A DNA stretch of 64,000 nt from Mycolicibacter hiberniae (GTDB taxonomy: Bacteria; Actinomycetota; Actinomycetes; Mycobacteriales; Mycobacteriaceae), in contig NZ_AP022609.1 in the NCBI RefSeq assembly GCF_010729485.1, forward strand, positions 186,001-250,000, in the 5' to 3' direction. The notes under the pieces are model-generated. The model had not been told where the DNA came from and did no database searches. It worked only from the letters and a program-made list of their open reading frames with translations. A program made the translations under genes and the position numbers. Below, one piece after another: positions 29,895-64,000 of this stretch (its first letter is position 1; each line of letters starts with the position of its first letter).

Positions 29895-30938
29895 ATGGCG
29901 GAGGGCCAGCGGTCCCGGCTCGACGGCGGCCGGCTGGGGCGATGGCTCGACGCCCACGGTGCACCCGGCCACGGCGAGTACCCCCGGCTTGAACCGCTGA
30001 CCGGAGGCTCGCAGAACACGCTCTACCGGGTGCGCCGGGGCGAGGCCACCCTGGTGCTGAGGATGCCCGGCCTGCGCGCCGACGCCGCCCGTATCGACGG
30101 GCTGCGGCGCGAGATCCGCCTGGTGCGGGCGTTGTCGGACACCGACGTACCGCATGCGCGGCTGATCGCCGCTGACGACGGTGAGCTGCTCGGCACCCCG
30201 TTCTACGTCATGGCTGAGGTGACCGGCTGGAATTCGACCGGCAACGCCTGGCCGGCCCCGTTCGACTCGGACCGAAATGCCCGCCGCGGCCTGGCTTTCG
30301 AGCTGGTCGGGGGCGCCGCCCGGCTCGGCCGGGTGGACTGGCGGGCGCAGGGCCTCGACGGGTTCGGCCGCCCGGACGGATTCCACGAGCGCCAGGTGGA
30401 CCGCTGGCTGGCATTCCTGGACCGCTACCGGGTGCGGGAGCTGCCAGGTCTCGACGAGGCCGCGGACTGGCTGCGCCGCAACCGGCCGCAGCACTACACC
30501 CCGGGCATCATGCACGGCGACTACCAGTTCGCCAACGTGATGTACGCCCACGGGGCACCCGCGAAACTGGTCGCCATCATCGACTGGGAGATGACGACCG
30601 TCGGGGATCCGCTGCTGGACCTGGCCTGGGCTTTGCTGGGCTATGACGGCGAGAACCCGCGCACCGACGGGTATTACGCCGACCTCGCCGGGATGCCGGC
30701 CCGATCCGAGCTGCTGGCGCACTACGAGCGGCTCAGCGGCCTGTCCACCGAGAACATCGACTACTACCTGGTGCTGGCCAACTGGAAGCTGGGGATCGTG
30801 TTGGAGAAGACCTACGCCGCCTCGGTCACCGGCGCAGCGGTCGACCCGCAGATCGCCGCCGCCATGGGACCGATGATCCCGCAGTTGATCGGTGCCGCAG
30901 CCGAACTCGCCCGTTCCCTTCCGTCGAAGCGAGCTTGA
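29895..30938 (+). CDS. Aminoglycoside-phosphotransferase-fold kinase (ACAD10-like)
   Basis: This 347-residue kinase-fold protein has the APH catalytic loop HGDYQFANVM at about residue 213 and the metal-binding IIDWEMTTVGDPLLDLAW at about 232-249. Proteins of this branch often sit beside ACAD10/11-type acyl-CoA dehydrogenases and may phosphorylate 4-hydroxyacyl-CoA to set up dehydration. That fits here, as an ACAD10-like dehydrogenase lies two genes downstream. The ATG at 29895 follows GCGAGG. It begins the accessory block and is probably co-transcribed with the next four genes. It is not expected to be a drug-resistance gene. Confidence 0.8.
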   Translation: MAEGQRSRLDGGRLGRWLDAHGAPGHGEYPRLEPLTGGSQNTLYRVRRGEATLVLRMPGLRADAARIDGLRREIRLVRALSDTDVPHARLIAADDGELLGTPFYVMAEVTGWNSTGNAWPAPFDSDRNARRGLAFELVGGAARLGRVDWRAQGLDGFGRPDGFHERQVDRWLAFLDRYRVRELPGLDEAADWLRRNRPQHYTPGIMHGDYQFANVMYAHGAPAKLVAIIDWEMTTVGDPLLDLAWALLGYDGENPRTDGYYADLAGMPARSELLAHYERLSGLSTENIDYYLVLANWKLGIVLEKTYAASVTGAAVDPQIAAAMGPMIPQLIGAAAELARSLPSKRA

Positions 30939-30939
30939 C

Positions 30940-31701
30940 ATGGGTTACGCCGACGCGCTCTTCGACCTGACCGACCGCGTGGTCCTGGTCACCGGCGGCA
31001 GTCGCGGCCTGGGCCGCGAGATGGCGATGGCCGCCGCCCGGTGCGGCGCGGACGTGCTGATCGCCAGCCGCAAATATCAGGCCTGCCAGCTGGCCGCTGC
31101 CGAGATCGAGGCCGCCACCGGACGCTCGGTGATGCCCTATGCCGTGCACGTCGGGCACTGGGATGAGCTCGACGGATTGGTCGATGCGGCCTATCAGCGG
31201 TTCGGCCGGGTCGACGTGTTGGTCAACAACGCCGGCATGTCGCCGGTCTACGACAAGCAGACCGACGTCACCGAGAAGATGTTCGACGCCGTGGTCAACC
31301 TCAACCTCAAAGGGCCCTTTAGGTTGTCGGCGTTGATCGGTGAACGGATGGTGGCAGCCGGCCGGGGATCGATCATCAATGTCAGCACCCACGGGTCGCT
31401 GCGCCCGCACCCGTCCTTCATTCCCTACGCTGCGGCCAAGGCCGGCCTCAACGTCATGACCGAGGCGCTGGCCCAGGCTTTCGGGCCGACGGTGCGGGTT
31501 AACACCTTGATGCCCGGCCCCTTTCTCACCGATATCTCCAAGGCCTGGGACTTCGGCCAAGCCGACAACCCCTTCGGCGCCGCGGCATTGCAGCGCGCCG
31601 GAAATCCGCCCGAGATCGTCGGCGCGGCACTGTTTCTGATGTCGGATGCCTCCAGTTTCACCACCGGCTCGATCCTGCGGGCCGACGGCGGCAGTGCCTG
31701 A
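30940..31701 (+). CDS. Short-chain dehydrogenase/reductase
   Basis: This 253-residue classical SDR has the TGGSRGLG cofactor motif at about residues 17-24, NNAG at about 94, the catalytic Ser in INVSTHGS at about 148 and Tyr-x3-Lys in YAAAK at about 163. It probably oxidises a hydroxyacyl-CoA or another hydroxyl intermediate with NAD(P). The ATG at 30940 lies one base after the upstream stop; a longer open frame reaches back into the kinase gene and is rejected. It sits between the APH kinase and an acyl-CoA dehydrogenase in one operon. Confidence 0.85.
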   Translation: MGYADALFDLTDRVVLVTGGSRGLGREMAMAAARCGADVLIASRKYQACQLAAAEIEAATGRSVMPYAVHVGHWDELDGLVDAAYQRFGRVDVLVNNAGMSPVYDKQTDVTEKMFDAVVNLNLKGPFRLSALIGERMVAAGRGSIINVSTHGSLRPHPSFIPYAAAKAGLNVMTEALAQAFGPTVRVNTLMPGPFLTDISKAWDFGQADNPFGAAALQRAGNPPEIVGAALFLMSDASSFTTGSILRADGGSA

Positions 31702-31725
31702 GGCACAGGCGAAAGGATTGAAGCG

Positions 31726-33042
31726 ATGGCGTGGGACTTCTCCACCGAACCGGAGTTCGAGGCCAAGCTCGACTGGATCCGTTCCTTCGTGCACGACGAG
31801 GTCGAACCATTGGAGGTGCTGTTTCCCGGCTGCGAATATCTGCCGCTGACCGAGGAACGCCGCCGTATCGTCGGCCCCCTCAAGGACCGGGTGCGCGAGC
31901 AGGGGCTGTGGGCTCCGCACCTGGGTCCCGAGCTGGGCGGTCAGGGATTCGGGGCGGTCAAACTGACCCTGATCAACGAGATCCTCGGCCGGTCCAGCTG
32001 GGCGCCGATCGTGTTCGGCACCCAGGCCCCCGACACCGGCAACGCCGAGATCCTGGCCCGCTTCGGCACGCAAGAGCAAAAAGACCGCTACCTGGCCGGC
32101 CTGCTGTCGGGGGAGATCTTCTCCTGCTTCTCGATGACCGAGCCGCAGGGCGGCGCCGACCCGCGGGTGTTCACCACCAGGGCCCGGCGCGCCGGCCCCG
32201 AAGACGATGCCGACTGGGTGATCACCGGACGCAAGTACTTCTCCTCCAACGCCTCGGTGGCGTCGTTCTTCATCGTGGTGGCCATCACCGACCCCGATGT
32301 ACCCGTGCACCGCGGGGCGTCGACCTTCCTGGTTCCGGCCGGCACCCCCGGCCTGGTCATCGAAGCCACCCATCACCTGGTCGGCTCGCATCCCCACGAG
32401 GCCGGGCATTCGCTGGTGCGCTACGACGACGTCCGGGTGCCGGCCGACGCGATCCTGGGGGAACCGGGGCAAGGATTCCTGATCCTGCAGAGCCGGCTGG
32501 CCGGCGGGCGCCTGCATCACGCCATGCGCGCGATCGGCGTGGCGCAGCGCGCCATCGACATGATGGCCCGCCGCGCCAAAAGCCGCTTCACCCAGGGCAG
32601 TTCGCTGGCCGACAAGCAGCTCGTGCAGGCCTTCATCGCCGACTCCTACGCCGAACTGATCCCGTTCCGGCTCACGGTGCTGCACGCCGCGTGGCTGATC
32701 GACTCCGGCGACGAGAAGGCGGCCCGCGCCGAGATCGGGGTCTGCAAGATCCTGGCCTCGCAGATACTCAAGTCGATCGGGTTGCGCGCCATCCAGGTAC
32801 ACGGCGCCATGGGGCTGACCGAACAGCTGCCCCTGACGAATGTGCTGCTGGGCGGCGTGGCGCTGGGCCTGGCCGACGGCCCCACCGAGGCGCACAAGGT
32901 GAACCTGGCCCGGCTGCTGCTCAAGGACTACGAGGCCGAGGATCCGGAGTGGCCCAGCGAGTTCCTGGACAACCGCATCGCGGCCGCCCGCGCGAAGTAC
33001 GGCCACCTGCTCGACGAGATCCCCGCGGTGCCCAGACCATGA
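31726..33042 (+). CDS. Acyl-CoA dehydrogenase (ACAD10/11-like)
   Basis: This 438-residue FAD enzyme introduces a 2,3-double bond in an acyl-CoA. Visible blocks are SCFSMTEPQGGADP (about residue 131), GRKYFSSNASVASFF (about 170), RARFTQG-like AKSRFTQGSSLADKQ (about 285) and IQVHGAMGLTEQLPL (about 352). The closing LADGPTEAHKVNLAR segment is the form found in the ACAD10/11 branch, where the usual C-terminal Glu is absent. The ATG at 31726 has GAAAGGA nine bases upstream. Its stop overlaps the TetR start by four bases. The upstream APH-fold kinase fits the 4-hydroxyacyl-CoA route known for this branch. Confidence 0.9.
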   Translation: MAWDFSTEPEFEAKLDWIRSFVHDEVEPLEVLFPGCEYLPLTEERRRIVGPLKDRVREQGLWAPHLGPELGGQGFGAVKLTLINEILGRSSWAPIVFGTQAPDTGNAEILARFGTQEQKDRYLAGLLSGEIFSCFSMTEPQGGADPRVFTTRARRAGPEDDADWVITGRKYFSSNASVASFFIVVAITDPDVPVHRGASTFLVPAGTPGLVIEATHHLVGSHPHEAGHSLVRYDDVRVPADAILGEPGQGFLILQSRLAGGRLHHAMRAIGVAQRAIDMMARRAKSRFTQGSSLADKQLVQAFIADSYAELIPFRLTVLHAAWLIDSGDEKAARAEIGVCKILASQILKSIGLRAIQVHGAMGLTEQLPLTNVLLGGVALGLADGPTEAHKVNLARLLLKDYEAEDPEWPSEFLDNRIAAARAKYGHLLDEIPAVPRP

Positions 33043-33647
33043 GCCGGGTCGAGGCGGCGGTGCACCGCGCGCTCGACGACCGGCAGCGCGAGGCCACCGC
33101 CGAGGTGGAGCGCATCCTGGCCGCTGCGGTCACGGTGTTGCAGCGCAGCGCGCCCGAACCGCCCCGGGTCTGCGACATCGTCGCCGAGGCGGGCTCGTCG
33201 AACAAGGCGTTCTACCGCTACTTCGCCGGCAAGGACGACGTGATCCTGGCGGTGATGGAACGCGGCGTCGCGATCGTGGTGTCCTACCTGGAACACCAGA
33301 TGGCCAAGGACCGCGCGCTGGCGGCCCAGGTCGCGCGGTGGATTCGCGGCGCCCTGGCGCAGCTCTCCGACCCGCACCTGCTGAGCCTGAGCCGCACCGC
33401 CAGCACCCAGCTGGAGGCGGGCGGGCAGCGGCGGTTATCCGATCAGGAGATCCTGGCGCCGTTGCGCGATCTGCTCACCGCGCCGGTCGGCGCACTCGGT
33501 GGCGACGACCCCCGCCGGGATGCCGACCTGGTCTTTGGCGCTACCTTGTCGACCATGCGTGGCTACCTCAATACGGGTCGCCGGCCTGCGCCGGCCGATG
33601 TGGATCACCTGGTGTCGTTCTGCCTGCGTGGGTTGGGGGCCCACTGA
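33039..33647 (+). CDS. TetR-family regulator
   Basis: This 202-residue regulator has an N-terminal TetR HTH at about residues 18-65 (ATAEVERILAAAVTVLQ, then CDIVAEAGSSNKAFYRYFAGK) and a short C-terminal sensing domain. The ATG at 33039 overlaps the preceding dehydrogenase stop (ATGA), and the TGA shares a base with the next ATG (TGATG), so it is embedded in and co-translated with the operon. It is a good candidate for local control of the 29.9-34.6 kb genes. The ligand is unknown, probably an acyl-CoA. Confidence 0.88.
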   Translation: MSRVEAAVHRALDDRQREATAEVERILAAAVTVLQRSAPEPPRVCDIVAEAGSSNKAFYRYFAGKDDVILAVMERGVAIVVSYLEHQMAKDRALAAQVARWIRGALAQLSDPHLLSLSRTASTQLEAGGQRRLSDQEILAPLRDLLTAPVGALGGDDPRRDADLVFGATLSTMRGYLNTGRRPAPADVDHLVSFCLRGLGAH

Positions 33648-34615
33648 TGCGCGCGATCGTCTGCGAGCGCTACGGGCCGCCCGAAGACCTGGTGCTGCGG
33701 GAGCTGCCGGATCCGGAGCCCGGGCCCGGCACCATGGTGGTCCGGGTGCGCGCGGCGGCGGTCAACTTCCCCGACGTGCTGATGATCGACGGCAAGTACC
33801 AGCTCAAGATCCCGGTGCCGTTCACCCCCGGCAGCGAGCTGGCCGGTGACGTGCTGGCCGTCGGGGAGGGCGTGGCCTTCGCGCCCGGCGACCGGGTGGT
33901 CGGCACGTCGTTCGTGGGCGGCTTCGCCGAGCAGGCGTTGGTGCCCGCCGCGGTCGCAACACCGATCCCCGAGGGCATCGACTACGCGGCCGCGGCCGGT
34001 TTCGGCGTCACCTACCGCACCGCCTATCACGCCCTGCGCTCGGTGGCCCGCGTCGGTGAAGGCGACTGGGTGGTGGTGCTGGGCGCGGCCGGTGGTGTCG
34101 GGCTGGCCGCCGTCGACCTCGGCGTGGCGATGGGCGCCAAAGTACTCGCGGCGGCCTCAAGCCCGGAGAAGCTGGAGGTGTGCCGGCAACGCGGCGCGGC
34201 GGCGACCGTGGACTACGACCGCGAGGACCTCAAGACGCGCATCCGCGAGATCACCGGCGCGGGCGCGCAGGCGGTGCTGGATCCGGTCGGCGGGCCCTAC
34301 GCCGAGCCGGCGCTGCGCAGTCTGGCCCGCGGCGGGCGCTTCGTCACGCTCGGCTACGCCTCCGGCGTCATTCCCGCGATCCCGCTGAACCTGGTGATGC
34401 TCAAGGGCATCACCGTGCAGGGCATGGAGATCCGCACCTTCGCCACCGACTTTCCGGCGGAGAACGAGCGCGATCTGGCCGAGCTGCAGCGGCTGTTCGC
34501 CGAGGGCACGGTCAGCCCCTACATCGGTGCCCGTTTCCCATTGGCCGACACCGCGGCCGCGCTGCGCTACGTCGCCGACCGCAAGGCGGTCGGCAAGGTG
34601 ATCATCGACGTCTGA
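33647..34615 (+). CDS. NADPH:quinone reductase-like medium-chain oxidoreductase
   Basis: This 322-residue MDR-superfamily protein resembles quinone oxidoreductase or acryloyl/enoyl-CoA reductases. It has VRAAAVNFPDVLMIDGKYQ at about residues 35-53, GSELAGDV at about 64, and the nucleotide motif GAAGGVGLAAVDLG at about 145-158. Zinc-binding Cys/His residues of alcohol dehydrogenases are absent, favouring an NADPH-dependent enone or enoyl reductase. The ATG at 33647 overlaps the TetR stop. Its last 14 bases overlap the convergent lipocalin-like gene. Confidence 0.87.
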   Translation: MRAIVCERYGPPEDLVLRELPDPEPGPGTMVVRVRAAAVNFPDVLMIDGKYQLKIPVPFTPGSELAGDVLAVGEGVAFAPGDRVVGTSFVGGFAEQALVPAAVATPIPEGIDYAAAAGFGVTYRTAYHALRSVARVGEGDWVVVLGAAGGVGLAAVDLGVAMGAKVLAAASSPEKLEVCRQRGAAATVDYDREDLKTRIREITGAGAQAVLDPVGGPYAEPALRSLARGGRFVTLGYASGVIPAIPLNLVMLKGITVQGMEIRTFATDFPAENERDLAELQRLFAEGTVSPYIGARFPLADTAAALRYVADRKAVGKVIIDV

Positions 34616-35006
34616 CCCAGACCAGGGTGTGCCGGCCCGTGACCCCGCCGCTGGTGGTCGTCGCCGACAGGGTCAGCCGGTCGCCGTCGACCCGCGCCTG
34701 CCGCACCTGCGGTGCCGCCAGCAGCTGCGGCAGCATCGACACACTGACCTCGTGGCGTACCGTCGCGGTGTCTTCGTCGACGTGGAAGCGGCCGCCGTAG
34801 GCGATATAGGAGGGCGACATGTCGTCGCGCGCAGCCTCCTCGGCGCTCCCGGTCAGCTGCGCGGACATGTAGCCGTCGCCGGTGTAGAGGATCAAGCCGC
34901 GCGGCTGCGTGCCCAGGGGATGCGACACCGCGCCGGTGGCGATGTCGACGGAGTCGAACGATGCCAGCTTCCAGCCGCCGAGCATGGCCTCGCGCAGGGT
35001 GCTCAT
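34602..35006 (-). CDS. Lipocalin-like domain protein
   Basis: This 134-residue single-domain protein starts LREAMLGGWKLASFDSVD, followed by beta strands such as RGLILYTGDGYMSAQL and GGRFHVDEDTATVRHEV. This matches the Lipocalin_5-type beta-barrel fold, which binds small hydrophobic ligands. It has no signal peptide, so it is probably cytoplasmic. The ATG at 35006 shares a base with the stop of the upstream carboxyltransferase gene (TGATG), so the two are co-translated. A carrier or accessory role for the acyl substrate is possible but not shown. Confidence 0.7.
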   Translation of the reverse strand: MSTLREAMLGGWKLASFDSVDIATGAVSHPLGTQPRGLILYTGDGYMSAQLTGSAEEAARDDMSPSYIAYGGRFHVDEDTATVRHEVSVSMLPQLLAAPQVRQARVDGDRLTLSATTTSGGVTGRHTLVWVRRR

Positions 35007-36502
35007 CAGGGCATGATGACGGTTCGGGCCACCGGCTCGGCGGCGGCCTGGCGGCTGTGCAGGCCACGCTGCAGGGCGCACAGCAGCGCGTCGCGGGTCT
35101 CGCGGGGGTCGATGAGCTCGTCGAAGCCGAGCTGCTGGGCGGAGTGATAGGACGCCTGCAGTTCGGTGTCGCGCAGCTTGGCCGCCAGATCCTCCCCGGC
35201 GTGCGAGGCCGCGCTGAGCGCCGCGGCGCTCATCGCGCCCATCGTCGCCCCGGGATAGGCGAAGGTCGCCACCTGCGCGTCGAAACCCAGCAGCGACATC
35301 ACCATGGAACCGAACCCGTAGGCCTTGCGCAGGGTCAGATGCAGCTTCAAGGTGGTGGCCGCGGTCTGGGCGGCGAACATCCGGGCACCGGCCCGCAGCA
35401 CCCCCGCGCGCTCCGAGCGGCTGCCGGGCAACATGCCGGGATTGTCGGCCAGGAACACGATCGGCAGGTGGAACGAGTCGGCCACCATGATGAAGTGCGC
35501 CGCCTTGTCCGCGGCGTCGGTGTCGATGGAACCGGCCAGCACCTGCGGCTGGTTGGCCACCACCGCAACCGGATGGCCGCCCAGATGCGCCAGGGCGCAG
35601 ACGATCGCGCGGCCGAACCGCGGTTGGACCTCGAACCAGTCGGGCCGGTCGAAGACGACGTCGAGCACCGAGCGCATGTCGTAGACGCGGCGGTTGTCGC
35701 GCGACACGATGTCGAGCAGTTCGGGCGTGGCCCGTGATTCGGCGGCGGAATCCGGTGCCAGTGACACCGGATAGGACCAGGCGCTGGACGGAAAGTAGGA
35801 CAGGTAGCGGCGGATGTCGTCGAGCACCGCCGCGTCGTCGGCGCCGAAGTTGTGCACCACACCGCTGGTCAGCGCCACGTCGGGGCCGCCCAGGTCTTCT
35901 TTGGAGATCACCTCGCCGGTGGACTCTTTGACCACCGGCGGGCCGGCCGTGAAGATCGCGCCGTGCGGGCTCATGATCCGGAAATCGCAGACCGGGCCGA
36001 CCAGGGCGCCGTGCCCGGCCGACGGGCCGAGTACCGCGGCCACTGTCGGCACCTTGCCCGAGCACTGCGCCTGGGCCAGCAAGTCGGTGGGGGTGCGGCC
36101 GTAGTGTTCCCCGGTGGGCCGGAACCCGGCGCCCTCGAGCAGCATCACCAGCGGGATCTTGTCGCGCAGCGCCAGTTCGGCGATGCGGTAGCGCTTGGCG
36201 TTGCCGCCGGGGCCGATACTGCCCGCCAGCGTGGTGAAGTCCTCGGCGCCCACCATCACAGGCGAGCCGTTGATGAGCCCCGATCCGACCACGATGCCGT
36301 CGGCAGCGATCTGGCCGCCGACCATGGAGCCCAGCTCACGGAAGCTTCCGGGATCGAGCAGGTGACCGATGCGTGCGCGCGCGTCGAGTTTGCCGGCAGC
36401 CCGGTGTTTGGCCACCCGCTCGGGGCCGCCCATGGCCCGGGTGTGCTGTCGCCGACGGTCGAGGTCCTCCAGAGTTTCCTGCCAGTCCCGGGCATTCGTC
36501 AT
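35006..36502 (-). CDS. Acyl-CoA carboxylase carboxyltransferase subunit
   Basis: This 498-residue beta subunit moves CO2 from biotin to an acyl-CoA (AccD family). It has the N-terminal domain block GPERVAKHRAAGKLDARARI (about residues 26-45), the first oxyanion region with GPSAGHGALVGPVCDF (about 160), and the C-terminal half with LADNPGMLPGSRSERAGVLRAG (about 355) and AYPGATMGAMSAAA (about 424). No biotin-carboxylase subunit is in the window, so it would borrow an AccA encoded elsewhere. The substrate is unknown; methylcrotonyl/geranyl-type or saturated branched acyl-CoA are options. The ATG at 36502 faces a divergent promoter region. Confidence 0.88.
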   Translation of the reverse strand: MTNARDWQETLEDLDRRRQHTRAMGGPERVAKHRAAGKLDARARIGHLLDPGSFRELGSMVGGQIAADGIVVGSGLINGSPVMVGAEDFTTLAGSIGPGGNAKRYRIAELALRDKIPLVMLLEGAGFRPTGEHYGRTPTDLLAQAQCSGKVPTVAAVLGPSAGHGALVGPVCDFRIMSPHGAIFTAGPPVVKESTGEVISKEDLGGPDVALTSGVVHNFGADDAAVLDDIRRYLSYFPSSAWSYPVSLAPDSAAESRATPELLDIVSRDNRRVYDMRSVLDVVFDRPDWFEVQPRFGRAIVCALAHLGGHPVAVVANQPQVLAGSIDTDAADKAAHFIMVADSFHLPIVFLADNPGMLPGSRSERAGVLRAGARMFAAQTAATTLKLHLTLRKAYGFGSMVMSLLGFDAQVATFAYPGATMGAMSAAALSAASHAGEDLAAKLRDTELQASYHSAQQLGFDELIDPRETRDALLCALQRGLHSRQAAAEPVARTVIMP

Positions 36503-36520
36503 CTGCGGCGTCCTCTTTCG

Positions 36521-36547: not shown

Positions 36548-36558
36548 CGTCTGCGAGC

Positions 36559-36657: not shown

Positions 36658-37745
36658 ACGCGCGGACCGCGATACCCCGGCATCCGCGCGACGTCACGAG
36701 CCAGTGGTTGTCGACGGTGTTGAGTGCCCGCGGCGAACCGGTCGAGGTGGCCTCGGTCGATGTCGTCGCCGTCGGTACCGGGCAGACCGGCGCCACCTAT
36801 CGGGTGCTGGCCGACTACCGCGACAACCCCGCCGGGCTGCCGGGCAGTTTCGTGATCAAGCTACCGGCCGCCGATGACGCCGTGCGGGATCGCGTCGTCC
36901 TGGGCTATCGCAGTGAGTGCGCCTTCTATCAGGAGGTTGCCGCGCGGGTGAAGGTACCGATACCGCAGTGCTTCCATTGCGACATCAACGAGGATGCAAC
37001 CGAGTACGCACTGCTGCTCGCCGATCGGTCGCCCGCGGTTCAGGGCGATCAGATCGCCGGCTGCGACCCGCACCAGGCCCGGCTGGCGGTGACCGCTCTG
37101 GCCGGTCTGCACGCGCCGACCTGGTGCGATCAGCGCTGGCTGACCTTCTCCGGCCTGGCCATGTCCCAGCTGGACGCCGACGGCGCCAGGGGGATGGGCG
37201 ACATCGCCCGGATGTGCGCCGCCGTCACCGTGCAGCGACTCGGCGCCCAACTCGGCGACGCCGACTGCGAGACGCTGACCGCGGCCCTGGATCTCATCAC
37301 CCCGTGGCTGTCGGCACCGGTGGGTCGGTTCGCGCTGATCCACGGCGACTATCGGCTGGACAACATGCTGTTCAGTCCCGACGGCGAAGCGATCTGGGTG
37401 GTGGACTGGCAGACGCTGGGCGTTGGGCTGCCGGCCCGCGATCTGGCTTTTTTCACCGGCACCAGCGTGGAACCCGAGCTGCGCAACCGGATCGAAGCCG
37501 ATCTGGTCGCCGAGTACCACAGCGCGTTGCTGGGCCATGGTGTCACCGGCTATGACCGGGAAACCTGTTGGCAGGACTACCGTTTCGGCGCGCTGCAGGT
37601 GCCGCTGATCTGCGCGCTGGGCCTGGTTTTCGCGACCGGCACCGACCGCGGCGACGACATGTTCGTGACGATGCTGCGGCGGGGATGCCAGGCCATCCGT
37701 GATCTGGGCACGCTGGAGCTGGTGGTCGAGCTGGCCGGTCGTTGA
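36654..37745 (+). CDS. Phosphotransferase (APH/EcKinase-like)
   Basis: This 363-residue kinase-fold protein has the catalytic loop LIHGDYRLDNMLF at about residue 233 and the metal site VVDWQTLGVGLPARDLAFF at about 254-272, as in ecdysteroid-kinase-like and APH families. The upstream nucleotide-binding segment is GTGQTGATYRVLADY. The GTG at 36654 is chosen over an upstream TTG because it overlaps a small ORF and gives the usual family N-terminus. It leads a transcript with the enoyl-CoA hydratase gene 25 bases downstream. The substrate is probably a hydroxylated lipid or CoA intermediate, not an antibiotic. Confidence 0.78.
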   Translation: MNARTAIPRHPRDVTSQWLSTVLSARGEPVEVASVDVVAVGTGQTGATYRVLADYRDNPAGLPGSFVIKLPAADDAVRDRVVLGYRSECAFYQEVAARVKVPIPQCFHCDINEDATEYALLLADRSPAVQGDQIAGCDPHQARLAVTALAGLHAPTWCDQRWLTFSGLAMSQLDADGARGMGDIARMCAAVTVQRLGAQLGDADCETLTAALDLITPWLSAPVGRFALIHGDYRLDNMLFSPDGEAIWVVDWQTLGVGLPARDLAFFTGTSVEPELRNRIEADLVAEYHSALLGHGVTGYDRETCWQDYRFGALQVPLICALGLVFATGTDRGDDMFVTMLRRGCQAIRDLGTLELVVELAGR

Positions 37746-39532: not shown

Positions 39533-39535
39533 GGC

Positions 39536-45625: not shown

Positions 45626-45638
45626 TGTCCAGGTCTCC

Positions 45639-51624: not shown

Positions 51625-51627
51625 GAT

Positions 51628-56880: not shown

Positions 56881-58046
56881 CCCTGGACTTCGACATGGGG
56901 CCGCGCGCCGCCGAGCTGCGGAGCCAGCTGCGTGAGCTGATCGAACGGGAGCTGCCCCCGCGGTTCCCGGGCGCATTCACCGACGACCCCGCTGACCTCG
57001 CTGCGGCGCAACGGTTCTGCCGGGCGTTGGCGGAGCAGGAGCTGCTGTGCCTGTCCTGGCCGCAGGAGTTCGGCGGGGCGGGCGCCTCGGTGTGGGAGCA
57101 GACCGTGGTGCGTGAGGAGATGTGGGCGCACCACGAGCCGCGCGGCGCGCAGTACATGGGGGTGAACTGGGTCGGCCCGATCCTCATGCGGCATGGCACC
57201 CCCGAACAACAGCACCGGCACCTGCCGCCGATCGCGGCCGGTGAGGTGATCTGGTGCCAGGGGTTCTCCGAGCCCGAAGCCGGTTCCGATCTGGCTTCGC
57301 TGCGCACGTACGCCCGCCGCGACGGTGACGGCTGGCTGATCAACGGCCAGAAGATCTGGACCTCGTACGCGACCATGGCGCAGTGGTGTTTCCTGCTGGT
57401 GCGCACCACCCGCGTCGGGGAAGGGTCCGTCACCAAAAAGCAGCAGGGCCTGACCGTGTTCCTGGTCCCGATGGACGACCCCGCCATCACCGTGCGCCCG
57501 CTGGGCACCATGATGGGCCCGCACCACCTCAACGAGGTCTTCTTCGATGACCTGCGCGTCACCGATGCCGACGTCCTCGGTGAGGTCGACGCGGGCTGGT
57601 CCATCGTGGCCGACGTGATGGCGTTCGAACGGGTCGGAATCGCCCGCTACGCGCGCTGCGAACGCCTGCTGGCCGCGGCGCCGCACGCGCTCGGGCAGCG
57701 TTGGGATGCCCTGCCGGCAGAGCTGATCGCCCGGTGGGTGCGGATGTTCACGCACTGCCGACGTGCCCGGCTGATGGCGTATCGGGTGGTGTCCCTGCAA
57801 GCCGGTGGCCGGGTTGCTCCCGGCGATGCGGCCGCCTACCGGATCGCCGTCACCCGGCTGGACCACGAGAGCGCGGAGGTGCTGATGGAGATCACCGCCG
57901 AAGCGCCCGCCACTCCGCTGGCCCAATGGTTTCGCCAAGAGGTCGAAGACCACTGGCGCTACTCGCAGGCCGCCACGGTGTCCTCGGGAAGCATTGAGAT
58001 GCAGCGCATCCTGCTCTCACGTGCCCTGCTGGCGGCGCCGCGATGA
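56877..58046 (+). CDS. Acyl-CoA dehydrogenase, alpha-type subunit
   Basis: This 389-residue acyl-CoA dehydrogenase has CQGFSEPEAGSDLASLRT at about residues 126-143 and NGQKIWTSYATMAQW at about 156-170. The usual C-terminal catalytic Glu is replaced (VSSGSIEMQR), but a Glu in MAFERVGIARY (about 245-255) is placed like the base of isovaleryl-CoA- and ChsE-type enzymes. The following gene encodes a shorter ACAD-like chain, so the enzyme is probably an alpha2beta2 heterotetramer as in mycobacterial steroid degradation. The ATG at 56877 overlaps the CoA-transferase stop. Confidence 0.92.
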   Translation: MTLDFDMGPRAAELRSQLRELIERELPPRFPGAFTDDPADLAAAQRFCRALAEQELLCLSWPQEFGGAGASVWEQTVVREEMWAHHEPRGAQYMGVNWVGPILMRHGTPEQQHRHLPPIAAGEVIWCQGFSEPEAGSDLASLRTYARRDGDGWLINGQKIWTSYATMAQWCFLLVRTTRVGEGSVTKKQQGLTVFLVPMDDPAITVRPLGTMMGPHHLNEVFFDDLRVTDADVLGEVDAGWSIVADVMAFERVGIARYARCERLLAAAPHALGQRWDALPAELIARWVRMFTHCRRARLMAYRVVSLQAGGRVAPGDAAAYRIAVTRLDHESAEVLMEITAEAPATPLAQWFRQEVEDHWRYSQAATVSSGSIEMQRILLSRALLAAPR

Positions 58047-58960
58047 ACCTCGAGCTGGGCAGCGAAGCGCAAGAGTACGGGCGGGCGGCGCGCCGCGCCT
58101 TCGAAGCCGCCGGCGGCGACGAGCTGGTGCTGCGTGCCGACGCCGACCCGGGACTGCGGGAGCACCTGGTGGGGCCGGTCCTGCGGGAGTTGGGCGCCTT
58201 GGAACTCCACCCCCGCGCCGATGCCGCCGAACTGGAGGCGGCCGCCGCCCTGTGCCGCAGCGCCGGGTACTGGGCGCTGCCCTACCCGGTGGCCGAATGT
58301 CTTTCCGCGCCGGCTGATCTCGACGTCGACGGATTGATCGTGGTGGCCGAGCACGCCCCTGCCGGGGCGGTTGCCGGACTGACCAAGCGCTGGGCGACCG
58401 TCACCCTGGCCGGCGTGCGCAGCACCGTGGTGGCACAGTCGCCGCCCCGGCCGGCCCTGGTGGCGGAGCTGACGCTGGCCGACCTCGACAGCGCCGGCGC
58501 CGGCGACATCGCCCTGGCACTGGCCCTGCCCTGCTGGACGCTGCTGGGGATGCTGGACCGGGCCATGGATCTGACCGTCTCGCATGTACGGCTGCGGGAA
58601 CAGTTCGGTCAGGCACTGTCGACGTTCCAGGGCGTGCAGTTCCAACTCACCGACGCCGAGGTGGAGCGCGCCGGGCTGGACATGCTGGCCAAATACGCGC
58701 TGTGGAGTATCGCGACCGGGCGCCCTGAAGCCGTCGATGACGCACTGGCGCTGCGATCGGTGGCGCTGGAGGCCGCCGAGGTGGTGTTCCGCGTCTGCCA
58801 CCAGCTGCACGGCGCAGTGGGGTTCTGCGACGAGACCGCGCTGTCGTGGCTGTCGCGCTACAGCCAGCCCCTGCGGCGCCTGCCCTGGGGACTCACGGCC
58901 ACCCGCGACCGGCTGGTCCGCCGCGCCCCGCGTACCGGGCTGACGGGAATCTACGCATGA
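58043..58960 (+). CDS. Acyl-CoA dehydrogenase, beta-type subunit
   Basis: This 305-residue ACAD-fold chain is shorter than a normal dehydrogenase (about 380). It keeps VRLREQFGQALSTFQGVQFQ at about residues 187-206 and the C-terminal CHQLHGAVGFCDETALSW at about 253-270. It lacks a clear SEPxxGSD flavin block, so it cannot work alone. The ATG at 58043 overlaps the alpha-type stop by four bases (ATGA), typical of alpha-beta FadE pairs such as FadE26-FadE27. It probably completes the active site of the upstream chain. Confidence 0.88.
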   Translation: MNLELGSEAQEYGRAARRAFEAAGGDELVLRADADPGLREHLVGPVLRELGALELHPRADAAELEAAAALCRSAGYWALPYPVAECLSAPADLDVDGLIVVAEHAPAGAVAGLTKRWATVTLAGVRSTVVAQSPPRPALVAELTLADLDSAGAGDIALALALPCWTLLGMLDRAMDLTVSHVRLREQFGQALSTFQGVQFQLTDAEVERAGLDMLAKYALWSIATGRPEAVDDALALRSVALEAAEVVFRVCHQLHGAVGFCDETALSWLSRYSQPLRRLPWGLTATRDRLVRRAPRTGLTGIYA

Positions 58961-59739
58961 GATACCAGCTGCCGCAGGAGATCACCGTCAGCGGTGACGG
59001 GCCGGTCCGCACCGTCACGATCAACCGGCCAGACGAGCTGAACAGTGTCAACGCCGACCTGTACTGGGGCTTGGCCAACGTCTGGCGCCAACTGGCCGCC
59101 GACAAGACGATCCGCGTCGTGGTGCTGACCGGAGCCGGGCGCGCATTCTCCGCCGGCGGTGACCTCAACTGGATCACCACGTTCCTCGACGACGAATCCG
59201 CCCGCGACGAGAGCATCCGCGAAGGGGCGCAGATCATCGAAGAGATGCTGCGGTTCCCCCTGCCGATCATCGCCGCCGTCAACGGCCCCGCCGTCGGGTT
59301 GGGCTGCAGCGTGGCGGTGCTCTGCGACATCGTGTTGATCGCGCAGACGGCGTATCTGGCCGATCCGCACGTGGCGGTCGGACTGGTCGCCGGCGACGGC
59401 GGGGCCGCGCTGTGGCCGCTGATCACCCCGATCCTGCGGTCCCGCGAATACCTCTACACCGGGGACCGCATCGACGCCGCCACCGCCGTCGAACTCGGAC
59501 TGGCCAGCCGTGCGGTGGCGCCTGAGGAACTGCTGCCGCAAGCCCATCAGCTGGCCGCCCGGCTGGCCGCCCAGCCGCCCGAGGCGTTGCAGGGCACCAA
59601 GCGCGTGGTCAACATGTATCTGTCGCAGGTGCTGGCCGGGCCGCTGCAGGCGGGCTTCGCCGCGGAAGTGGCCACCATGAAGACCGCCGAACACCGGCAG
59701 CGCCTGCTCGCCTTCGCAGAGCGGGCGGCCCGGCGATGA
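58957..59739 (+). CDS. Enoyl-CoA hydratase/isomerase-family protein
   Basis: This 260-residue crotonase-fold protein has VRTVTINRPDELNSVNADL at about residues 16-34, GRAFSAGGDLNWIT at about 62 and NGPAVGLGCSVAVLCDI at about 109. Both classical catalytic Glu positions are changed (GLGCSVA and LADPHVAVG), so hydration by the standard mechanism is doubtful. The ATG at 58957 overlaps the upstream stop, and its own stop overlaps the next start. A hydratase for the double bond made by the heterotetrameric dehydrogenase is the natural reading, but this needs testing. Confidence 0.88.
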   Translation: MRYQLPQEITVSGDGPVRTVTINRPDELNSVNADLYWGLANVWRQLAADKTIRVVVLTGAGRAFSAGGDLNWITTFLDDESARDESIREGAQIIEEMLRFPLPIIAAVNGPAVGLGCSVAVLCDIVLIAQTAYLADPHVAVGLVAGDGGAALWPLITPILRSREYLYTGDRIDAATAVELGLASRAVAPEELLPQAHQLAARLAAQPPEALQGTKRVVNMYLSQVLAGPLQAGFAAEVATMKTAEHRQRLLAFAERAARR

Positions 59740-61007
59740 CCGGCGGTTCAGCGAGGCTCGACGCAGGAGAGGCGAAGCTGGGAACGCCGCATGGGCCCGG
59801 CGGTTCAGCGAGGCTCGACGCAGGAGAGGCGAAGCTGGGAACGCCGCATGGCACCACCGAATTCCGGCTCCAGGTGCGGCAGTGGTGCCGCGACAACATC
59901 CCGGCCGACTGGCGGCGCGCCCAGACCGGGGTGAGTGAGCGTGAATTCGTCGACTTCCAGCGCAGCTGGTTCGCCACCCTGCACAGCGCCGGGTTCGCGG
60001 TCCCGCACTGGCCGGGCGAATGGGGCGGCGGGATGTCGGTGGCTGAGCAGGCCGTGCTGTACCAGGAGTTGGCCGCCCACGACGCCCCGCGGCTGGTGCT
60101 GGCTTTCGTCGGCATTCACCACGCCGCGGCGACGCTGCTGGCCGCCGGCACCGACGAGCAGCGCCGCCGGCACCTGCCGGCGATCCTGGACGGCGAGATC
60201 TGGGTGCAGGGCTTCTCCGAACCGGAGGCGGGCTCGGACCTGGCGTCGCTGCGGACCACCGCACGCCGCGTCGGTGAGAACTATGTGGTCAACGGCCAGA
60301 AGCTGTGGGCCAGCGGCGCCCGGCACGCCCAGTGGTGCCTGCTGTTGGCCCGCACCGACCCGCACGCCCCCAAGCGCAAGGGCATCTCCTACTTTCTGTT
60401 GGACATGGCCACCCCCGGGGTGCAGGTGCGGCCGATCCGCAACGCCGTCGGCGACAACCATTTCTGCGAGATCTTCCTCGACGACGTGGTCATCCCGGCG
60501 ACCAACCTGATCGGCGCGGAGAACACCGGATGGCAGGTGGCGCAGGCGACGCTGGGCGCCGAACGCGGCTTGACCATGCTTGAGCTGGCCGAACGGCTGG
60601 GGTGCGCCGGATTTCGCTGGCTGGCGCAGGCCGCGCCCGCCGGGGACCCGGTGGTGGCCGACCGGTTGGCCCAGCTGGAAACCGAGATCACCGGACTGCG
60701 CAGCATGTGCCGGGAACTGGTGCGCAACGCCGAAGCCGGCACCGCCGGACCGGCGGACGCCTCGATCGTCAAGCTCGTCTACAGCGAGCTGCTGCAACAG
60801 CTCACCGACTTCGGCGCCGAGATCGCCGGTCCGCAGGCCCACACGGTGCTCGACAAGCCGTTGTCCAGCGGCTGGGAATCGGGATCGTGGGTGCTGGACT
60901 TCATCGGCTCCTGGGAGTGGACCATCCCCGGCGGGTCCAGCGAGATCCAGCGCAGCATCATCGGCGAACGCGGCCTCGGCCTGCCCAGAGAGCCGAGCAT
61001 GCCGTGA
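59736..61007 (+). CDS. Acyl-CoA dehydrogenase, alpha-type, with N-terminal tandem repeat
   Basis: This 423-residue acyl-CoA dehydrogenase has QGFSEPEAGSDLASLRTTA at about residues 164-182, NGQKLWASGARHAQW at about 195-209 and IPGGSSEIQRSIIGERGLGL near the C-terminus. The Glu in LGAERGLTM may be the base. The ATG at 59736 overlaps the previous stop. Directly after codon 2 the protein has two copies of a 19-residue repeat starting GGSARLDAGEAKLGTPHG, which are not part of any ACAD fold. They come from a 57-bp DNA repeat. The fold itself starts near TTEFRLQVRQWC. The next gene is its beta partner. Confidence 0.92.
   Translation: MTGGSARLDAGEAKLGTPHGPGGSARLDAGEAKLGTPHGTTEFRLQVRQWCRDNIPADWRRAQTGVSEREFVDFQRSWFATLHSAGFAVPHWPGEWGGGMSVAEQAVLYQELAAHDAPRLVLAFVGIHHAAATLLAAGTDEQRRRHLPAILDGEIWVQGFSEPEAGSDLASLRTTARRVGENYVVNGQKLWASGARHAQWCLLLARTDPHAPKRKGISYFLLDMATPGVQVRPIRNAVGDNHFCEIFLDDVVIPATNLIGAENTGWQVAQATLGAERGLTMLELAERLGCAGFRWLAQAAPAGDPVVADRLAQLETEITGLRSMCRELVRNAEAGTAGPADASIVKLVYSELLQQLTDFGAEIAGPQAHTVLDKPLSSGWESGSWVLDFIGSWEWTIPGGSSEIQRSIIGERGLGLPREPSMP
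59740..59851 (+). repeat. 57-bp tandem direct repeat inside a dehydrogenase gene
   Basis: Two identical 55-base copies at 59740-59794 and 59797-59851 have a 57-base period, exactly 19 codons. They lie right after the second codon of the dehydrogenase gene and keep the frame. No third copy was noticed elsewhere in the window. Confidence 0.9.
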
Positions 61008-62020
61008 CCACAACCGATTTCGCTGAGCTGCACGACGACCTTCGTGCCGTCGCCGCCGATGTGGTGGGCCGTGGACGCGAGGTGGACTGGTCCACCATGG
61101 CTGATGCCGGGTGGCTGGGGCTGGAGGTCCCCGAAGCCCTCGGCGGGGCCGGAGCGACTTTCGCCGAGGCAGCGGTGATCTGCGAACAACTGGGCCGCGC
61201 CGCTGCGGCATCGCATTACCTGGGCGGCGCGGTGCTGACCGCAGGCGTGTTGAACAGCCTGCAGGACAGTGCGACTCGCGACGCGCTGCTGTCCGACCTC
61301 GCCGTCGGACGGAGCCGGATCGCCACCGTGCCCGGAGGCTCCTTCGTACTTGACGGTGCCGGACGGCTGACCGGGAGCGCCACCTTCGCACTCGACGCCG
61401 ACGGCGCCGACCGACTGGTGGTCCTGGCCACCGAAGAGTCCGGGGACCCGGTAGCCGTCCTCGCCGAGGGTTGCACCGTGACACCCCAAGCGGTGCTGGA
61501 CGAGACGCGCCGGATCGCCACGGTCACCGCCGAGGGGACCGCAGTCGCCGACTCGGCAGTGCTGCGGTTCGCCGATCCCCACGGGGCTCAGGCGGTGCGC
61601 CACCGGGCGGCGGCGGCAGTGGCCTGCGACAGCCTGGGACTGGCCGAGGCGATGCTCGCCGCAACCGTGACCTACGCGCAGACTCGAGAGCAGTTCGGGC
61701 GTCCGATCGGCTCCTTTCAGGCTGTCAAACACGCCTGCGCCGACATGCTGGTGAAAGTCACGATGGCGCGCACCCTGGTCCGCGACGCCGTCCGGGCGGT
61801 CGCGACGAACAGCCCCGAGGTGGATGTCGCGGTGGCCATGGCGAAGTCCTACACCTGCACTGCCGCAGTCGACGTCGTCGGCAAAGCGCTGCAACTGCAC
61901 GGTGGCATCGGCTACACGTGGGAGAGCGGGATCCACGTCTATCTCAAGCGCGCCACGTTCAACCGGTCGCTGTTCGGATCTCCGGCAGCGCACCGGCGTC
62001 GGCTGGCGCAACGGTACTGA
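61004..62020 (+). CDS. Acyl-CoA dehydrogenase, beta-type subunit
   Basis: This 338-residue ACAD-fold chain is shorter than the classical enzyme, with EVPEALGGAGATFAEAAVIC at about residues 38-57, TYAQTREQFGRPIGSFQAVK at about 223-242 and LQLHGGIGYTWESGIHVYLKR at about 290-310. The flavin SEP motif is missing. The GTG at 61004 overlaps the alpha-type stop by four bases (GTGA). It probably forms a heterotetramer with the upstream protein, making this the second alpha-beta pair in the operon. The product ends 35 bases before the ThDP-enzyme gene. Confidence 0.88.
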   Translation: MTTTDFAELHDDLRAVAADVVGRGREVDWSTMADAGWLGLEVPEALGGAGATFAEAAVICEQLGRAAAASHYLGGAVLTAGVLNSLQDSATRDALLSDLAVGRSRIATVPGGSFVLDGAGRLTGSATFALDADGADRLVVLATEESGDPVAVLAEGCTVTPQAVLDETRRIATVTAEGTAVADSAVLRFADPHGAQAVRHRAAAAVACDSLGLAEAMLAATVTYAQTREQFGRPIGSFQAVKHACADMLVKVTMARTLVRDAVRAVATNSPEVDVAVAMAKSYTCTAAVDVVGKALQLHGGIGYTWESGIHVYLKRATFNRSLFGSPAAHRRRLAQRY

Positions 62021-62055
62021 GTCAAAAAAATCAAGTGAATCAAGGAGTTTCGACT

Positions 62056-63762
62056 GTGGGTGTGCCCGTATATCGCCGGATTCTGGAGTTGTTCGAGGCC
62101 GAGGGCGTCAACACGCTGTTCGGCATCCCCGACCCCAACTTCGTGCACATGTTCGTCGAGGCCGAGCAACGCGGCTGGTCGGTGGTGGCGCCGCACCACG
62201 AGGAGAGTGCGGGATTCATGGCCGAGGCGGCCTCCCGGATGACCGGCCGGCCGGGTCTGTGCATCGGCACCCTGGGACCGGGAGTCGCCAATATCGCCGG
62301 GGCGATGATGTGCGCGAAGGTGGAGAACTCCCCGGTGGTGTTCCTGGGCGGCCAGCGCGCCCGCATCACCGAGCGCCGGGTGCGGCGCGGGCGGATCCAG
62401 TTCGTCCGCCAGGAAGAGCTCTTCACGCCGTCGGTCAAATACAGCGCGTCGATCGAATACGCCGACCAGACCGACGAGATCGTGCACGAGGCGATTCGCC
62501 GCGCGCTGTCCGGCACGCCCGGACCGGCCTACATCGAATACCCGTCCCACGTCATCCTCGAAGAACTCGACGTCGCCGCCCCGGCCGAGCCGCACCGCTA
62601 TCGGCTGGTCAACCAGCGCGCCGGCGGGCCCGAGGTCGCCGAGGCCGCCGAGATCATCCGCAACGCATCCAGCCCGATCCTGCTGGTGGGCCACGGGGTG
62701 CACACCTCACGCAGCGCGTCCGCGGTCGCCGAGCTGGCTCAGCTGATGGCCTGCCCGATCATCCAGACCTCCGGGGGCACCGCGTTCATCCCCGGCCTGG
62801 AAGAGCGCACCTTTCCCTACGGTTTCTCCACCGCGGCCGTCGAAGCCGTCGCCGGCTCCGATGTCTGCGTGGCGCTGGGCACCGAGTTGGGCGAGCCGGT
62901 GCACTACGGCACCACCCGGCACTGGGCGGACAAGAACGCCGAACGCAAGTGGATCTACGTCGAGCAGGACCCGATGGCGATCGGGGTGAACCGGCCGGTG
63001 GACGTGCCGCTGGTGGGCGACCTGCGCGGTATCGTGCCGCAACTTGTCGACGCGCTCAAAAACAGCCCCCGCACACCGTCGCCCGACCTGGCCAGGTGGA
63101 TCGAACAGGATGCCGACCAGCTCGCCGAGTTGGCCCAAACCGCACCCGCGGGGCGCAGTCCGGTGCACCCGGCGCGCTTTGTGGTCGAGGCCACGAAGGC
63201 TTTTCCGTCCGAGGGCATCATGGTCCGCGACGGCGGCGCGACGGTGATCTTCCAGTGGACCTACTCACAGGCCAAACCGCATGACGTGATGTGGAACCAG
63301 AACTTCGGACACCTGGGCACCGGACTGCCCTACGCCGTCGGGGCCTCGGTCGCCGAGGGCGGTAAACGGCCGGTGATGCTGCTGACCAGCGACTCGGCGT
63401 TCCTGTTCCACATCGCCGAGCTGGAGACCGCGGCCCGGCTGAACCTGCCGCTGGTCTGCGTGGTGGGCGTGGACCACCAATGGGGCCTGGAAGTGGGGGT
63501 CTACAAGCGGACGTTCGAACAGCCTTCCCCGCAGCCCGGCGTGCACTGGAGCAAGAACGTCCGGTTCGACAAGATTGCCGAGGGCATGGGCTGCCATGGG
63601 GAGTACGTCGACGACGAGGCCCAGATCGGACCGGCGATCGAGCGGGCCTACGCCACCGGCGGGACGGCGGTGATCCACGTCTGCATCGACCCGAAGGCGA
63701 ACTCCGAAGAGATGCCCAACTACGCCGAGTTCCGGACCTGGTATGCCGAGGGAACCCAGTGA
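62056..63762 (+). CDS. ThDP-dependent enzyme (acetolactate synthase/2-hydroxyacyl-CoA lyase superfamily)
   Basis: This 568-residue protein has the three-domain layout of pyruvate-oxidase-type ThDP enzymes. The Glu that activates the cofactor is in HHEESAGFMAEAAS (Glu49), followed by the conserved GTLGPGVANIAGA. The ThDP-binding motif is unusual: the GDG triad is Ser-Asp-Ser (TSDSAFLFH, residues 445-447), and the second Asn is replaced in VVGVDHQWG. The GTG at 62056 has AAGGAG nine bases upstream. In this operon a 2-hydroxyacyl-CoA lyase or a decarboxylase is plausible, but the reaction is not fixed by sequence. Confidence 0.85.
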   Translation: MGVPVYRRILELFEAEGVNTLFGIPDPNFVHMFVEAEQRGWSVVAPHHEESAGFMAEAASRMTGRPGLCIGTLGPGVANIAGAMMCAKVENSPVVFLGGQRARITERRVRRGRIQFVRQEELFTPSVKYSASIEYADQTDEIVHEAIRRALSGTPGPAYIEYPSHVILEELDVAAPAEPHRYRLVNQRAGGPEVAEAAEIIRNASSPILLVGHGVHTSRSASAVAELAQLMACPIIQTSGGTAFIPGLEERTFPYGFSTAAVEAVAGSDVCVALGTELGEPVHYGTTRHWADKNAERKWIYVEQDPMAIGVNRPVDVPLVGDLRGIVPQLVDALKNSPRTPSPDLARWIEQDADQLAELAQTAPAGRSPVHPARFVVEATKAFPSEGIMVRDGGATVIFQWTYSQAKPHDVMWNQNFGHLGTGLPYAVGASVAEGGKRPVMLLTSDSAFLFHIAELETAARLNLPLVCVVGVDHQWGLEVGVYKRTFEQPSPQPGVHWSKNVRFDKIAEGMGCHGEYVDDEAQIGPAIERAYATGGTAVIHVCIDPKANSEEMPNYAEFRTWYAEGTQ

Positions 63763-63775
63763 GAATATTTTTCTC
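63761..63775. promoter_or_regulatory. GAGAA-N5-TTCTC palindrome before the last dehydrogenase gene
   Basis: GAGAATATTTTTCTC starts within the stop codon of the ThDP-enzyme gene and lies about 45 bases before the next start. It has the same arms as the sites at 29856 and 47042. Confidence 0.55.
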
Positions 63776-63820
63776 GTTTAGGAATAACAACGTGCAGGCG
63801 CGGAGGGGCTGGAGGCGATC

Positions 63821-64000
63821 ATGTCCGGCGGAATGAGCTTCGAACTGACCGAGGACCAGCAGCTGATCCGCAAGTCGATCGCCGAACTCGCGGCGAAGTT
63901 CGACGACCACTACTGGATGACCAAAGACCTGGCGCACGAATTCCCCCAGGAGTTCTACGACGCCGTCGCCGGCGGCGGCTGGCTGGGCATGACCATCCCC
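63821..64000 (+). CDS. Acyl-CoA dehydrogenase, N-terminal part (runs off the window)
   Basis: The first 60 residues of an acyl-CoA dehydrogenase are visible: MSFELTEDQQLIRKSIAELA is the typical N-terminal helix, followed by EFPQEFYDAVAGGGWLGMTIP. The ATG at 63821 has GGAGG eight bases upstream; an ATG 12 bases later (MSFEL) is an alternative start. The preceding palindrome at 63761-63775 may control it. It may be the start of another alpha-beta pair. Confidence 0.88.
   Translation, partial: MSGGMSFELTEDQQLIRKSIAELAAKFDDHYWMTKDLAHEFPQEFYDAVAGGGWLGMTIP

Follow-up and report, generated by a model that had tools for sequence, protein, structure and literature searches.

A probable supercluster of acyl-CoA catabolic modules beside the str operon of Mycolicibacter hiberniae

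In Mycolicibacter hiberniae, a gene-dense block rich in acyl-CoA enzymes follows the str-operon region, and we consider it probable that this block is a catabolic supercluster of Mycolicibacter, composed of acyl-CoA modules that are separate operons in other mycobacteria and that would feed beta-oxidation from different sides. We analyzed a stretch of 64,000 nucleotides (the window), positions 186,001-250,000 of the 4.40-Mb single-contig genome, assigning families by Pfam and NCBIfam profile scores against curated cut-offs and also comparing PDB entries. On its left, the window holds the rpoB-rpoC and rpsL-rpsG-fusA-tuf (str-operon) region; downstream of tuf come g23, a mycofactocin-type short-chain dehydrogenase/reductase (SDR, g24) and a ferredoxin reductase (g25), and the block then begins with g26 at position 29,895. 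From there through 63,762 we called 32 genes (g26-g57) with a coding fraction of 95.8%, and their 31 junctions include eight four-base and two one-base overlaps, in keeping with the roughly 30 overlapping genes of a preliminary description made from the letters alone. The 34-kb block which that description had delimited is real, but its end at 64,000 is wrong, as the block extends 13.7 kb beyond the window to position 263,672 of the contig (G000:C1; genes g58-g71), for a total of ~48 kb. Because of six strand switches within g26-g57 and four regulators in the extended block (g29, g43, g49 and g63), we conclude that the block is not one operon.

The enzyme classes named at the outset are all present: CoA ligases (g46, g48), CaiB-type transferases (g40, g51), two acyl-CoA dehydrogenase pairs (g52/g53 and g55/g56), a carboxyltransferase (g32), a two-piece B12 mutase (g37/g38), an Ltp-like thiolase with a DUF35 partner (g41/g42), a cytochrome P450 (g45), a thiamine diphosphate (ThDP) enzyme (g57) and YrbE permeases (g35/g36). 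A role in acyl-CoA catabolism is well supported, whereas the statement that almost all genes encode CoA-ester enzymes was too strong: by family, 18 of the 32 do (g28, g32, g34, g37, g38, g40, g41, g42, g44, g46, g48 and g51-g57, with g57 uncertain), or 19 if the kinase g26 is included. The remainder comprises SDRs, two kinase-like proteins, regulators, a lipocalin, permeases, an F420 enzyme, the P450, a medium-chain dehydrogenase/reductase (MDR) and a propeller protein. Over the ~48 kb, seven Acyl-CoA_dh_1 matches were found where 0.92 were expected from the 85 genome-wide, with a Poisson probability (5e-5) that serves as a guide only, since such genes clump elsewhere in the genome too.

Comparison with other genomes revealed the modular make-up. 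We sampled the best 80 of 528 places related to g37, comprising 68 loci from elsewhere and 12 that we call Mycolicibacter-type (L005-L016, the 12 best found with g37; 11 are named Mycolicibacter and one is Mycobacterium sp. UM_WGJ). Genes 27-44 stand in the same order in all 12 of the latter, and the block can hence not be called accessory among the nearest relatives, except for the P450 g45, which was matched in only four of the 12 (40% identity over half the length); g46-47 were matched in 11 of the 12 within the stretch fetched. The closest relative over the block appears to be M. engbaekii, with at least 96% identity for 16 of the 21 proteins matched in L008 and 97% for g57. Within the sample, the whole block is confined to Mycolicibacter-type genomes; outside them, g26-30, g37-40 with partners of its own, g46-57, g58-64, g41-42, g32 and the YrbE pair are separately placed. 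The mutase genes g37-g38 are kept in 68 of 68 outside loci and the quartet g37-g40 in 60; the eight exceptions comprise three full-length loci (L064, L068 and L070) and one of probably sufficient length (L083), in which the quartet is not nearby, and four (L048, L053, L058 and L066) that end too soon to judge. In 20 loci fetched outside Mycolicibacter, chosen from 47 such genomes with g28 at 78% identity or more, g26-g28 occur together in every case and g26-g30 are complete in 17. The ThDP gene g57 is present in 58 of 118 genomes of the genus. Twenty g57 regions were fetched, two of which (L115 and L116) contain the entire run 45-61; of the other 18, all outside Mycolicibacter, 17 have g51 together with g57 (L134 has g57 alone), 16 have g49 and g50 upstream of g51, 10 have both dehydrogenase pairs, and none has g54. 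The order of g58-g64 is kept in five genomes, with g60 unmatched in two of them. Among 25 chosen genomes, including three Mycolicibacter-type, g58 was found in all, g41 (best match, at least 80%) in 24 and g32 (at least 78%) in 23.

The best-resolved module, g26-g28, appears from its residues to fit a known pathway type, 4-hydroxy acid catabolism. The APH-like kinase g26 (29,895-30,938, plus strand; Pfam APH, 4e-30) aligns to residues 45-326 of ACAD11, and the acyl-CoA dehydrogenase-fold protein g28 (31,726-33,042, plus strand) to residues 418-770. The ACAD11 family is marked by a kinase Asp (D220), a dehydrogenase Asp (D753) and R626, H634 and R637, according to excerpts from PMC12440821, and in the Pseudomonas putida levulinate system LvaA phosphorylates its substrate and LvaC eliminates to the enoyl-CoA, according to excerpts from PMC11342911. 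We found that g26 keeps the kinase motifs HGDYQFAN and DWE (in IIDWEMTT) and that g28 keeps the catalytic Asp (LADGP) and the R/H/R cluster (SRLAGGRLHHAMR), reading chain numbers shifted by one relative to PMC12440821. This four-residue pattern is not seen in seven other acyl-CoA dehydrogenases that we aligned (g12 outside the block and six inside it). Among the g28 loci of relatives, HHAMR and LADGP occur in 21 of 21 and the full pattern in 19, and the genetic linkage of kinase and dehydrogenase is kept in all 20 fetched loci and in a further one, L143. By likeness to LvaA and LvaC, we predict that g26 phosphorylates a 4-hydroxyacyl-CoA and that g28 eliminates the phosphate; g27 (30,940-31,701, plus strand; NCBIfam SDR matches), judged by its place between them, is a possible LvaD-like 4-keto reductase. 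The module shares with ACAD10/ACAD11 and LvaA-LvaC the kinase, the dehydrogenase-fold enzyme, the diagnostic Asp and R/H/R residues and the SDR next door, as far as the excerpts of PMC12440821 and PMC11342911 describe them. It differs in that the two enzymes are separate genes with g27 between them, in that the unit has no ligase, and in that a TetR-type regulator (g29, 33,039-33,647, plus strand) and a quinone oxidoreductase-like MDR enzyme (g30, 33,647-34,615, plus strand; TIGR02824, 234 bits, below the cut-off of 297) are attached.

The quartet g37-g40 consists, all on the plus strand, of a B12 acyl-CoA mutase catalytic subunit of a distinct subfamily (g37, 40,454-42,031; TIGR00641, 649 bits, above cut-off), a B12-binding subunit (g38, 42,079-42,462; TIGR00640, 139 bits, above cut-off), an F420-dependent luciferase-like oxidoreductase (g39, 42,465-43,418; TIGR03564, 343 bits against a cut-off of 234) and a CaiB-type CoA transferase or racemase (g40, 43,419-44,444). 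The closest PDB entries to g37 are 2-hydroxyisobutyryl-CoA mutase (496 bits) and then methylmalonyl-CoA mutase (466 bits). At the positions that we take to be Tyr89, Arg207 and His244 of methylmalonyl-CoA mutase, g37 keeps the equivalent residues, while Ala replaces what would be Tyr243, and the B12 domain is separate as g38. Identification of g37 as a 2-hydroxyisobutyryl-CoA mutase was rejected, as Ala, Tyr and Arg stand at what are presumably its specificity positions Asp117, Ile90 and Gln. From these residues we read g37 as a putative mutase that has a wider pocket and acts on a carboxylated acyl-CoA. Compared with 2-hydroxyisobutyryl-CoA mutase (4r3u), g37/g38 thus share the family and the split into a large and a small subunit and lack the hydroxyisobutyryl pattern; compared with methylmalonyl-CoA mutase (2xij, 8gju), g37 shares the family and the Tyr and Arg and differs in the Ala; and from both, the pair differs by standing with an F420 enzyme and a CaiB protein. 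The mycobacterial ibcM/ibcP, a 2-hydroxyisobutyryl-CoA mutase in the excerpted text of PMC13188929, is likened here by its description rather than by sequence. The g37-type mutase is not treated in the excerpts of PMC5395668 (SAR202 genomes) and PMC13188929 (an isobutylene plasmid pathway), and a literature search judged by titles and abstract openings found no publication on the block or on such a mutase.

The g37 family is conserved: identity is 86-98% for the 120 matches listed among 7,962, with Streptomyces, Actinomadura, Parafrankia and Gordonia represented, and the four motif strings that span the residues named above are shared by 73 of 76 sequences (the window and 75 of the 80 loci), one pattern being unmatched in the other three. 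Unbiased clustering of the neighbors in 63 of the 68 outside loci revealed recurrent partners, namely an SDR immediately upstream (51), a CoA ligase (46), a pair of dehydrogenases (45 and 44), a hydratase (43), a reductase with FAD, NAD and 2Fe-2S domains (40), g67 (22) and g66 (21). In M. hiberniae these usual partners do not adjoin the quartet; g66 and g67 lie ~27 kb away, and among the pieces of its own genome compared, only g54 is moderately related to the partner hydratase (45-48%). Orthologues of the TetR-type regulator g43 (46,266-46,916, minus strand) at 69-79% identity lie within ~11 kb of the mutase in seven of the 68 outside loci (L017, L043, L051, L065, L067, L074 and L079), a hint that g43 regulates the mutase module; no Rfam match, such as a cobalamin riboswitch, was found in the window. 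We tentatively propose, as a possibility short of an even chance, that g37-g40 and their conserved partners form an undescribed B12- and F420-dependent pathway of Actinomycetota, in which a new type of mutase rearranges a carboxylated acyl-CoA larger than methylmalonyl-CoA (of the alkylmalonyl or alkylsuccinyl type, the remnant of a branched or cyclic acid), and that Mycolicibacter has rewired it into the block.

The run g51-g57 (55,777-63,762, plus strand) contains CaiB g51, the dehydrogenase pairs g52/53 and g55/56, the hydratase g54 and the ThDP enzyme g57. The best PDB match of g57 is an oxalyl-CoA decarboxylase/hydroxyacyl-CoA synthase entry (197 bits), while its NCBIfam scores for 2-hydroxyacyl-CoA lyase and oxalyl-CoA decarboxylase, 172 of 600 and 176 of 739 bits, are far below cut-off. 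After the catalytic Asp, g57 reads SDSAF...DHQWG, with DH for the usual NN motif. The catalytic Glu of AcHACL on the active-site helix is E493, as given in excerpts from PMC8760513, and, on a reading made without direct alignment, g57 has a Glu near rather than at this place. A role of g57 as lyase of a 2-hydroxyisobutyrate pathway was found unsupported by these scores and the PDB comparison. The arrangement of a ThDP enzyme near CaiB g51 recalls oxalyl-CoA decarboxylase and 2-hydroxyacyl-CoA lyase (8vzc, 7pt1) with a CaiB-type formyl-CoA transferase, and by this analogy a recycling of CoA between g51 and g57 is possible; what sets g57 apart is its low scores, the DH motif and the uncertain position of the Glu.

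Linkage among the modules bears on the alternative put forward in the preliminary description, that the block encodes one dedicated, uncharacterized pathway for a branched or cyclic carboxylic acid, with ligase, dehydrogenase pairs, mutase, ThDP enzyme and thiolases acting in sequence. Of the 118 genomes, 53 have the close form of g28, 58 have g57 and 30 have both, where 26.1 are expected (p 0.19). This test misleadingly suggests no link, because it omits a second g28 form, 54-58% identical to g28, which is present in 41 genomes. The two forms are nearly exclusive, with one genome having both against 18.4 expected (p 5e-13), and either form occurs in 57 of the 58 g57 genomes against 45.7 expected (p 1e-7, uncontrolled for kinship and incomplete genomes), an association that could also just mark catabolically rich lineages. 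These genome sets were copied by hand and the g28 counts, taken from the matches listed, are lower bounds, as fragments may be missed. Furthermore, in 17 of 21 genomes outside Mycolicibacter, orthologues of g58, g35 (YrbE) and g41 lie within 50-107 kb, counting G065 as a miss (it may join across the origin) and leaving out G071, which has several contigs. Of these 21 genomes, 11 have the second g28 form, in each case at 8-13 kb from g58 (in G101, near g58, HGDYQFAN marks a kinase that adjoins a dehydrogenase with HHAMR and LADGP), while the close form lies 60 kb to more than 1 Mb away, in linear distance, in 10 of 10. It is hence likely that the 4-hydroxy-acid unit is linked to g58-64, and further links among the other modules are possible.

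The regional linkage and the co-occurrence of g57 with an ACAD11-type form raised our estimate for a single pathway; also in its favor are the gene order kept in near relatives and, outside Mycolicibacter, the mutase quartet's own ligase, dehydrogenase pair, hydratase and reductase. We nevertheless regard a single pathway as unlikely: the modules are separate elsewhere, the extended block has four regulators, and known, separate chemistry fits g26-g28. The order comparison which had been proposed across mycobacteria gave a divided answer: the order is kept in near relatives, and at least one module resembles a known separate pathway. A branched or cyclic acid is no more than a possibility as substrate for modules other than g26-g28. 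Several points also weigh against the supercluster and temper our confidence in it. The separate places of the modules may overstate their independence, given the linkage in 17 of 21 genomes and the 57 of 58 g57 genomes with an ACAD11-type form, and the latter association lowered our confidence; the genus-wide order may reflect joint use of the whole block; no LvaE-type ligase was found among g26-g30, the nearest called ligase, g46, lying some 15 kb on; and no near-perfect 16-base palindrome was found in the intergenic gaps of the block, which left no operators to compare between modules.

Dehydrogenase pairs, Ltp/DUF35 pairs and YrbE proteins are typical of sterol and bile-acid catabolism, and the block could on these general grounds be an outlying part of such a pathway, a reading to which G101 lends some weight by joining orthologues of g58-64, g35/36 and g41/42 with an mce operon and P450-like genes in one region. 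We hold it to be quite improbable, since the steroid equivalog models scored below cut-off for the proteins scanned, the HsaA gene of the genome lies at 3.267 Mb, and full sites of the KstR and KstR2 consensus sequences were not found in the part of the block inside the window, where three 8-base KstR-like cores are present. A sterol core cluster in particular was rejected, HsaA being located elsewhere. Outside the block, before the mycofactocin-type SDR gene g24, the palindrome TAGAACACGTTCTA (window 27,752-27,765) fits the KstR consensus, with one such site found in the window against 0.12 expected.

The YrbE (MlaE) permease pair g35-g36 (38,726-40,390, plus strand) has no Mce genes adjoining. 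The genome contains 16 MlaE matches (eight pairs) and 54 Mce matches that group by position as nine sets of six, the latter standing in the whole 4.4 Mb beside the 85 Acyl-CoA_dh_1 matches. Seven pairs precede an Mce set, the window pair stands alone, and the Mce sets at 3.00 and 4.35 Mb (G000:C1, 3,002-3,008 kb and 4,353-4,359 kb) have no pair, so that a split Mce transporter with an orphan YrbE pair is conceivable. Orthologues of g35/g36 stand at the head of an mce operon in four loci from three other genomes; the likeness to mycobacterial Mce operons lies in this orthology (four loci checked), and the usual YrbE pair followed by six Mce proteins is not seen here. In G101, five of the six Mce proteins have their best M. 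hiberniae match (61-65%) in the pairless 3.00-Mb set, and the upstream genes match neighbors of that set at 76-85%. The pair may therefore be the displaced permease of the 3.00-Mb set, with the counterweight that M. hiberniae has a second YrbE pair, at 2.55 Mb, whose similarity is equal or higher.

At the left edge, the g25/g26 junction (window 29,831-29,894) is a rearrangement junction, which we count in favor of the supercluster. A single gene separates the g25 orthologue of G060 from mftR, mftB, mftC, mftD, mftE and mftF, all above their NCBIfam cut-offs, and seven further genomes have the same mft matches one to four genes after g25, which makes 8 of 8 other mycobacteria examined. In M. 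hiberniae, mftR, mftB, mftC and mftD are located at 2.91 Mb, and it is the block that comes after g25; three other Mycolicibacter-type genomes agree in the spacing of their g25 and g28 matches. A position at such a junction would suit a recently acquired island as well. That explanation is very improbable, as the G+C content of the block (0.67-0.71) is inside the range of the flanks, no tRNA was found in the window, the order is the same in 12 of 12 near relatives, the modules have close mycobacterial relatives, and the block is present across the genus.

The remaining genes of the block in the window complete its inventory. Between the g26-g30 unit and the YrbE pair lie a lipocalin-5-like protein (g31, 34,602-35,006, minus strand; PF13924, 2.9e-25), the AccD/mmdA-like carboxyltransferase (g32, 35,006-36,502, minus strand; PF01039, 2e-90), for which the families found in g26-g57 include neither a biotin carboxylase nor a carrier, a second APH/ecdysteroid-kinase-like protein with an HGDYRLDN motif (g33, 36,717-37,745, plus strand) and, by family profile, an enoyl-CoA hydratase (g34, 37,771-38,604, plus strand). 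The quartet is followed by the Ltp-type thiolase with its ChsH2/DUF35 OB-fold partner (g41-g42, 44,471-46,055, minus strand) and, beyond g43, by an enoyl-CoA hydratase-family protein (g44, 47,153-47,935, plus strand; PRK08290, 401 bits, above cut-off), the P450 g45 (48,055-49,407, plus strand), variable among near relatives, and g46-g50 (49,376-55,567, minus strand), which encode a CoA ligase, an SDR, a second CoA ligase, a GntR regulator and an SMP-30/strictosidine-synthase-like propeller, possibly a lactonase. The start of g58 (63,821-64,000, plus strand) ends the window, and g58-g71 beyond it include dehydrogenases, a CaiB protein, a hydratase, a thiolase, the TetR regulator g63, the ligase g67 and others. 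Genes were called with a home-made caller, so start codons and g68/g69 may be off. In the latter two (L001:11245-13397), hydratase and CaiB domains are found only in the second halves, with partial profile coverage, and both are matched at 77-85% in relatives; they are either unusual proteins or gene-calling errors.

From the modular make-up, its conservation and the g26/g28 residues, all read directly from sequences, we infer the reactions and substrates of the supercluster as follows. The SDR g27 would make or oxidize a 4-hydroxyacyl-CoA, the kinase g26 would phosphorylate its 4-hydroxyl group, and g28 would eliminate the phosphate to give an enoyl-CoA, on which g58-g62 (dehydrogenases, CaiB, hydratase and thiolase) could continue beta-oxidation. 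Separately, in a carboxylated acyl-CoA, the mutase g37-g38 would move the CoA-carbonyl group, with g40 acting as racemase or CoA transferase and g39 providing an F420-linked redox step, whereas g51-g57 would dehydrogenate a substrate before g57 cleaves a C-C bond and g51 possibly recycles the CoA.

Overall, g26-g28 would belong to a known kind of system, and g37-g40 would be a variant worth testing. The assignments would give testable functions to long mycobacterial gene runs whose present names go no further than acyl-CoA dehydrogenase, phosphotransferase or mutase. If our reading of g26-g28 is right, mycobacteria with either g28 form (93 of the 118 genomes of the genus) should use 4-hydroxy acids through the phosphorylation chemistry of mammals and Pseudomonas, and the g37 family may mark a conserved B12 reaction for which we found no assigned substrate.

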